Below are positions 11,554-12,618 of a stretch of 64,000 nt of DNA, in pieces (positions within the stretch are counted from its first letter, which is position 1; the number at the start of each line of letters is the position of its first letter). Source of the DNA: Nautilia sp. PV-1 (GTDB lineage Bacteria; Campylobacterota; Campylobacteria; Campylobacterales; Nautiliaceae); contig NZ_CP026530.1 of assembly GCF_004006315.1 (NCBI RefSeq), positions 1,292,501 through 1,356,500 of the forward strand, in the 5' to 3' direction. A program made the translations under genes and the position numbers. The notes beneath the pieces were generated by a model. That model ran no database searches. It saw only the letters and a program-made list of their open reading frames with translations, and had not been told where the DNA came from.

Positions 11554-11652
11554 TGGCGGAAGGGGGAAGGAATCGAACCTTCCGGGCAGACAGTCACCTG
11601 CCGCCCCACCGGGTTTGAAGCCCGGGGTGTCCACCAGGATCACATCCCCTCC
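11554..11652 (-). tRNA. selC: tRNA-Sec (anticodon TCA)
   Basis: The sequence folds as a selenocysteine tRNA of 99 nt including an encoded CCA. The acceptor starts GGAGGGGA and pairs with CCCCTTCC over 7 of 8 positions. The anticodon stem-loop CCGGG-CTTCAAA-CCCGG carries TCA, which reads UGA. A long variable arm (GGGCGGCAGG...CTGCCC) and the T arm GAAGGTTCGATTCCTTC follow, and the discriminator is G. The long variable arm and extended acceptor are typical of selC. A -10-like TAAAAT lies about 18 nt upstream. It shows that the genome uses UGA for selenocysteine. Confidence 0.96.
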
Positions 11653-11833: not shown

Positions 11834-12178
11834 ATGAAAATTTCTAAAATCGCATTAGCGGCAGTATTAGCAGGCGGACTTTTTATTACTACTGCATCTG
11901 CAGATTACAACAAAGGGTTCAAATATTACAATAAATACGTAAAGAAAAAATCCGGAGTAAAATCTACTCAGTTAATCAAAATTCTGGGAGTAAAAAGTCT
12001 TAACGATTTAGACAAACTGTTTGAAAACAACGGTAAGCCTTTAATTGAAAAATTAAAAGCGGCTGGAGAGGAAAAAGCGGCAAAAGCAATGCAAAAAGTT
12101 ATAAAAAAAGGAAAATTAAAAGACGTTCATGACTTTTTAAGAGGAATTATGGAAGGAAAAATTCCGGCAGGATGTTAA
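11834..12178 (+). CDS. Small secreted protein with C-terminal cysteine (paralog of the predicted selenoprotein)
   Basis: This 114-residue protein has a signal peptide cleaved after ...TASA, giving a mature form starting DYNKGFKYYNKYVKKKSG. The rest is lysine-rich and helical and ends KLKDVHDFLRGIMEGKIPAGC. Its only cysteine is the last residue. The protein at 12271-12618 on the opposite strand is a paralog along its whole length. I do not recognise a named family; it resembles small periplasmic proteins of Campylobacterota that end in a conserved cysteine. The start has AAAGGAGC six bases upstream. Confidence 0.85.
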   Translation: MKISKIALAAVLAGGLFITTASADYNKGFKYYNKYVKKKSGVKSTQLIKILGVKSLNDLDKLFENNGKPLIEKLKAAGEEKAAKAMQKVIKKGKLKDVHDFLRGIMEGKIPAGC

Positions 12179-12193
12179 ATCCTGTTTCTTTTT
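12168..12193 (+). terminator. Intrinsic terminator spanning the stop codon
   Basis: CAGGAT and ATCCTG form a perfect 6-bp stem around the loop GTTAA, which contains the Cys codon end and the TAA stop. TTTCTTTTT follows. The gene therefore ends transcription at its own stop codon. Confidence 0.65.
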
Positions 12194-12208
12194 ATCTTTT
12201 GAGAGATA

Positions 12209-12220
12209 AGTGTCTGTCAC
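12209..12220. repeat. AGTGTCTGTCAC motif, copy 2
   Basis: This is an exact repeat of the motif at 11386-11397, in the same orientation. The two copies bracket selC and the secreted-protein gene. It lies about 30 nt after the stop codon of the gene at 11834-12178. Confidence 0.4.
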
Positions 12221-12242
12221 CAAAAATGCTAATTTAAAAATG

Positions 12243-12263
12243 TAAGGCACAACCTGTGCCCTA
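12243..12263 (-). promoter_or_regulatory. Candidate bacterial SECIS hairpin (or terminator)
   Basis: On the minus strand UAGGGCAC pairs with GUGCCUUA (8 bp, one G-U) around the 5-nt loop AGGUU. It begins about 11 nt after the in-frame UGA, and the loop GGU lies 19 nt after it. In E. coli fdhF the SelB-binding AGGU loop lies about 18 nt after UGA. The alternative is an intrinsic terminator, because CATTTTTAAA follows. The two roles are not exclusive. Confidence 0.55.
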
Positions 12264-12270
12264 TTAAGCG

Positions 12271-12618
12271 TTATCAGCCAGCAGGAATTTTACCATTGAG
12301 CATACCTACTAAGAAATCTTGTAAATCTTTAAGTTTATGTTTCTTAGCAATTTTCTCAATGGCTTTTGCAGCTTTCTTTTTACCAAGTTTTTCTAATTTT
12401 GCAATTAGAGGTTTAGCATCATCTTTAAGTAATGCTTTCATTTGGTCAGGTGTTTGTACTCCAATAATTTTTAAGAACTGAGTACCTTTAATGTGGCTCA
12501 TTCTTTTTACATATTTTTGGTAGTACTTAAACCCTTTGTTGTAGTCAGCGAAAGCTGCAGTCACGCTAACACTTGCAAGTAGCAAACCTGCTACAAAAAT
12601 CTTTGCAAAGCGTCTCAT
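12271..12618 (-). CDS. Predicted small secreted selenoprotein with C-terminal selenocysteine
   Basis: Read conventionally this is a 114-residue protein ending GKIPAG at a TGA (12274-12276). The TGA is directly followed by TAA, and the paralog at 11834 has TGT-TAA at the same place. I therefore extend it by one codon to Sec115. It has a signal peptide (ending ...VTAAFA) and a mature start DYNKGFKYYQKYVKRMSH, and like its paralog it would carry a single redox-active residue at the C-terminus. selC lies about 620 bp away and a SECIS-like hairpin follows the TGA. AAAGGAG precedes the ATG. Reading the TGA as Sec is an inference; the gene itself is secure. Confidence 0.75.

Follow-up and report, generated by a model that had tools for sequence, protein, structure and literature searches.

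In the complete 1.79-Mb genome of the Nautilia, a deep-sea vent bacterium, from which it derives (G000), the stretch analysed here (the window; 64,000 nt, G000:C1:1292501-1356500) carries, beside the selenocysteine tRNA gene selC, two small related genes with reading frames ending in TGT-TAA and TGA-TAA, raising the question of whether the TGA is a stop codon or encodes selenocysteine (Sec). The minus-strand frame concerned (12618–12274) specifies 114 aa up to GKIPAG, followed by TGA (12274–12276) and, directly 3′ of it, TAA (12271–12273). With the TGA read as Sec, as its alignment with Cys and the existence of homologous TGA genes suggest, the predicted selenoprotein gene spans 12271–12618 (minus strand; 115 residues, Sec (U) last). 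Its paralog (11834–12178, plus strand; 114 aa) ends in Cys (GKIPAG-TGT-TAA) and lacks a hairpin where a SECIS would lie. The two genes converge, encode ~52% identical proteins, each with a signal-peptide-like N-terminal segment (called by eye, without a predictor), and adjoin selC (11558–11652, minus strand; anticodon UCA) and thrS, not psr genes. The original prediction had described this inverted pair of secreted paralogs and their differing ends, and the arrangement is confirmed by the ORFs, ARAGORN and Rfam (RF01852, 67 bits).

Decoding of the terminal TGA

The TGA aligns with TGT or TGC in homologs, in a column that is invariantly Cys across 40 Cys members. On the minus strand past the TGA lies an element absent from the original prediction, a putative bSECIS hairpin, UAGGGCACA-GGU-UGUGCCUUA (12243–12263, loop start 19 nt past the TGA), identified by fold, geometry and covariation and also scored as terminator-like. 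The sequence here folds into GGGCACA-GGU-UGUGCCU (fold z = -3.36), and none of 2000 shuffles was as good as the 9-bp hairpin with its GGU loop. Because translation stops at TAA, this bSECIS would lie entirely within the 3′ UTR and Sec would therefore be the C-terminal residue.

Two known Sec genes of the same genome, fdhA and selD (loci L106 and L108), both with an in-frame TGA, have hairpins of matching geometry, 19 nt past the TGA with a GGG loop in fdhA and 17 nt past it with a GGA loop in selD. selA (G000:C1:1287222) and selB (1288601) lie ~14–18 kb from the window gene, and the genome carries the complete set of selA, selB, selC and selD. Cys-aligned UGA, bSECIS and selA/selB/selC/selD, the features of bacterial UGA-decoded selenoproteins, are thus all found here. 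Within the 64-kb window, this gene is the sole sense-strand TGA-ended frame of ≥60 aa with such a hairpin, the same scan giving one extra match, antisense to dnaE; an Rfam scan of the window found selC and no match to a SECIS family. From these sequence features the UGA is very probably decoded as Sec, placed at the extreme C-terminus. The placement of Sec at the paralog's Cys position, as first proposed, agrees with the invariant Cys column, the bSECIS and 13 other such genes, and the expectation of a full selenocysteine pathway is borne out by the four sel genes and the TGA-containing fdhA and selD.

Five family members are present in this genome. A second paralog with a putative C-terminal Sec (L005/L046; G000:C1:751278-751619, plus strand) ends GKIPPG-TGA-ATG-TAA, giving a Sec-Met terminus, and has its own SECIS hairpin (GUGCACA-GGC-UGUGCAU), and a third member (L004), ending GEIPAG-TGT-ATG-TAA, is the Cys counterpart of this terminus.

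The hairpin could also be an intrinsic terminator behind an ordinary TGA stop, in which case the protein would end at GKIPAG, having lost its terminal Cys. A T-run begins shortly past the 9-bp stem, the scan scored the site in the window as terminator-like, and some relatives have an outer stem enclosing the hairpin, with a T-run after it. Several properties of the homologous genes, set out below, point the other way.

Sec and Cys forms across Campylobacterota

Fourteen TGA genes of the family were identified, in 10 genomes from three taxonomic families. Eleven are in seven genomes of Nautiliaceae, where every fetched relative was inspected, and the remaining three (G294, G306 and G307; two other taxonomic families) end GNVPS-TGA-TAA and were found by pattern searches, then checked at the sequence level, that of G306 being a contig-end fragment. 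Most of the inspected GNVPS-TGA pattern matches (L148–L153) were due to chance, and a stricter pattern, DSG.VP.-TGA, gave none in 397 phylum-level genomes, a draw that excludes the three non-Nautiliaceae Sec genomes.

In all 14 genes the hairpin loop starts 17–20 nt past the TGA, a near-constant distance that argues against a plain terminator, as does the loop itself, which nearly always begins with GG, like those of fdhA and selD (of 13 distinct hairpins, 12 have a GGN loop and one has GTG). A second in-frame stop, found directly after each TGA or one codon later, likewise speaks against the TGA being an ordinary stop. With scoring over a range of 15–21 nt, hairpins reaching the threshold follow 11/11 Nautiliaceae Sec genes and 0/46 Cys members, compared with 19/533 ORF ends in the loci (family members are among these). 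The stem also covaries: with two identical genes counted once, the 13 hairpins have standard pairs in 75 of the 78 cells for the six inner stem pairs, against 43 on average and never more than 62 when the arms were re-dealt 10,000 times. Stem pairs 2 to 6 are present in every Sec gene, with two or three pair types each; 13 genes besides that of the window show the arrangement, with compensatory changes among them.

TGA forms are also restricted to genomes with selA, which again disfavours a plain stop. selA is present in 10 of 21 Nautiliaceae genomes, including all seven with a Sec form (hypergeometric p about 0.001 assuming independence, which these genomes do not have), and G294, G306 and G307 carry it too (10/10 Sec genomes). 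Two selA-positive genomes, G015 and G136, have Cys forms only. No Sec form was found in the 11 selA-less Nautiliaceae genomes, including by a search for the pattern GKIP[AP]G-TGA. In selA-less genomes (loci L019, L020 and L025) the sequence at the end of the Cys form, TGT-GGT-TGA-TACCAC, spans the stop codon as a near-perfect inverted repeat.

An ordinary terminator is rejected as the sole explanation of the hairpin, and a plain stop at this TGA appears highly improbable. Where the hairpin is nested in an outer stem with a T-run, it may additionally terminate transcription. In several Sec genes (L014, L145 and 12243–12275 of the window) it is either nested in this way or has a T-run behind it, so that a single element of the 3′ UTR may act in Sec insertion and in transcription termination alike.

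The ortholog of the window gene adjoins selC in 7/7 genomes that have it (six besides the window). N. profundicola has this ortholog (L024) as well as the Cys paralog. With the terminal residue left out, the protein tree implies about six Cys/Sec changes across the family, at least three of them forced by well-supported (starred) branches.

Gene context, structure and possible function

In Nautiliaceae, one or two family members lie immediately 5′ of genes for a DUF3373 outer-membrane protein (porin), psrA, psrB and psrC, an operon that usually continues with SQR, thioredoxin and thioredoxin reductase genes; its leader is a Sec form in G033 and G088. Outside Nautiliaceae the Sec gene follows psrABC directly in G294, follows psrABC and a gene for a secreted rhodanese in G307 and is directly 5′ of psrA in G306, so that 5 of the 14 Sec genes are at psr operons. 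G155 has a Cys form next to genes for an SQR-like flavoprotein and a rhodanese. In several other genomes the Cys form is 5′ of the DUF3373 gene alone. DUF3373 (L077, 7342–8883, and homologs) is the commonest direct neighbour and the most constant one, even where no psr gene is nearby (L092, L093, L099, L100, L157 and L174). The DUF3373 protein is a candidate polysulfide or sulfur channel; among the papers searched, none joins DUF3373 and polysulfide. Within 9 kb of many distant Cys members there is no scored sulfur gene, so the link to sulfur, strong in Nautiliaceae and for the Sec genes outside it, is unproven in other members of the family.

The family extends well beyond the Sec forms. Of 200 genomes sampled in the order, 150 have a match to a profile built from distant members, in a family that the scanned protein libraries leave uncovered; the profile also recovers the Nautiliaceae proteins (E about 1e-9 to 1e-18). 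The alignment defines a signature of signal peptide, helical domain and flexible tail ending G[KN][IV]P..C/U, and the C-terminal Cys/Sec is present in every distant member with a cleanly read end. The residue before the lone Sec is Gly or Ser, and the Nautiliaceae Sec proteins have no partner Cys. Modelling of the window protein gave an all-helical domain (pLDDT about 95 in the core) with a looser C-terminal tail, and the gene product is best explained as a secreted, all-helical protein of ~90 mature residues. A PDB fold search with this model gave no match at E ≤ 0.001, and Pfam and NCBIfam scans of the window proteins returned sub-threshold noise only, including a chance match to a toxin subunit (14.7 bits vs a cut-off of 201 bits). 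In some longer family members (L003, 1495–2019, minus strand; L051, L061, L062 and L063) the Cys-terminal domain is fused to an additional domain of ~75 aa at its N-terminal side, and the end is GK[IV]P.CS or CG; the L003 member has one Mrp/ApbC-like and one cation-efflux-like gene beside it.

Four distant members (L033, L104, L163 and L164) keep a CxxCH haem site alongside a C-terminal VP[SA]C(G), and cytochrome c models are matched by 4 of 28 members. The closest PDB sequence match to the family profile is cytochrome c-552 (E = 0.001), and the best structure matches of the L104 model are mostly c-type cytochromes, none of them significant. Descent of the family from a monohaem cytochrome c by haem loss is thus weakly supported, with these four members as possible living intermediates between cytochrome c and the haem-less family.

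The original prediction had suggested a redox or metal-binding role in the periplasm; this was a guess, and gene context more specifically indicates handling of sulfane sulfur in polysulfide respiration. As the closest members sit with sulfur-respiration genes, the protein may pass sulfur to the sulfur-respiring enzyme. Taken as a whole, the explanation that we somewhat favour is a Sec-ended periplasmic protein acting as a sulfur carrier to PsrABC. SelB would decode UGA at the bSECIS in the 3′ UTR, placing Sec at the C-terminus of a protein presumably located in the periplasm. Its lone terminal thiol or selenol could take sulfane sulfur from polysulfide, for which the DUF3373 outer-membrane protein is a possible entry route, to form a persulfide or selenopersulfide; the tail might then swing into PsrA, the molybdoenzyme of PsrABC, which would reduce the sulfur to H2S. 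Sec may offer a higher rate or easier release under high polysulfide flux. We infer this carrier role of the terminal residue partly by analogy with SoxY and Sud, which likewise present sulfur on a single Cys, and the swinging-arm step itself, presentation of sulfane sulfur on the terminal thiol/selenol to polysulfide reductase, seems to us evenly balanced.

Rather than carrying respiratory sulfur, the protein could be a redox or detoxification selenoprotein acting on peroxide, reactive sulfur or oxygen species, Hg/As or other soft metals. A redox function is assumed for most selenoproteins (PMC13188914), thioredoxin and thioredoxin reductase genes lie downstream in the psr operons, and a lone selenol is also a good ligand for soft metals; the Nautiliaceae Sec proteins, however, have no resolving Cys and neither a thioredoxin nor a peroxidase fold, and the scored loci place the family with psr, SQR and rhodanese genes, making this role rather unlikely. 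Another reading is that the terminal Cys/Sec is an attachment point, forming a mixed disulfide or selenylsulfide with the DUF3373 protein or PsrA, in a structural or targeting factor. The frequency of DUF3373 as direct neighbour, also away from psr genes, and the position of the residue at the extreme C-terminus of a flexible tail would fit this, but Cys would suffice for attachment and the repeated exchange of Cys and Sec favours chemistry at this very atom, so that an anchoring function looks distinctly improbable.

Combining the carrier reading with the proposed ancestry, a small cytochrome c that lost its haem might have become, across Campylobacterota, a terminal-thiol sulfur carrier, into which a selenol was swapped repeatedly in sulfur-respiring lineages to give a selenopersulfide carrier dedicated to polysulfide reductase. 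We put this forward tentatively, as possible rather than probable; if true, the terminal-thiol/selenol carrier would be the missing step from outside sulfur to PsrA. The family would connect selenium use with sulfur respiration. How polysulfide reaches PsrABC in vent Campylobacterota is poorly understood, and the family offers a candidate for this step. In N. profundicola, according to the passages on sulfur respiration in PMC2628731, elemental sulfur/polysulfide is the only sulfur acceptor respired, via PsrABC, and a Sud homolog is encoded elsewhere. Such passages in PMC2628731 and PMC10092268 name PsrABC, SQR and the Sud homolog for Nautilia and make no mention of the family protein; the Sud homolog could perform the same carrier job.

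Comparison with known systems

Novelty was raised in the original prediction as a possibility and holds in part. None of the 119 prokaryotic selenoprotein families of a May 2026 inventory (PMC13188914) is the window family, neither NCBIfam (June 2026) nor Pfam has a model for it, and a literature search found no described selenoprotein of the lone C-terminal-Sec, secreted form. Its absence from the inventory and from NCBIfam makes it a new selenoprotein family, though of a known kind, as C-terminal Sec has a precedent in DUF466/KCU-star (NF033934; PMC4607533). Like the window family, those proteins are small and end in Sec, with a stop codon immediately after the UGA and the SECIS beyond it; they were first found in Campylobacterales and have homologs with Cys. 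They differ in ending with a vicinal Cys-Sec pair, in contrast to the lone Sec after Gly or Ser here; the window family also has a signal peptide, and neither NCBIfam nor Pfam showed any similarity. The window protein, with its Gly-Sec terminus, gave no NCBIfam match to NF033934. The family has presumably been overlooked because gene callers take the TGA of a terminal Sec as the end of the gene, and a Sec codon that looks like a stop, with its SECIS in the 3′ UTR, is a route by which a selenoprotein family escapes notice.

Among sulfur-handling proteins, Sud, the polysulfide-sulfur transferase of Wolinella succinogenes, is similarly periplasmic, with a single reactive Cys and PsrABC as proposed partner. 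Sud is a rhodanese, whereas the window family has no rhodanese similarity (no match of the window proteins to PF00581) and G307 encodes a separate secreted rhodanese. SoxY is a periplasmic carrier with its Cys on a flexible C-terminal arm, and SoxY of SoxYZ resembles the window family in this respect. It differs in its GGCGG tail and in working in oxidation with SoxZ, against an all-helical model, a GKIPAG[C/U] terminus and a psr rather than sox context here; the window proteins gave no match to the SoxY domain. Monohaem c-type cytochromes (PF13442, PF00034) share CxxCH and model matches with some distant members; the window proteins, by contrast, have neither, and only the terminal Cys/Sec is kept throughout. 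Set beside these systems, the build of the family is unusual: the scaffold is helical and not of the thioredoxin type, it carries a single Sec, at the terminus, and it is linked to sulfur respiration.
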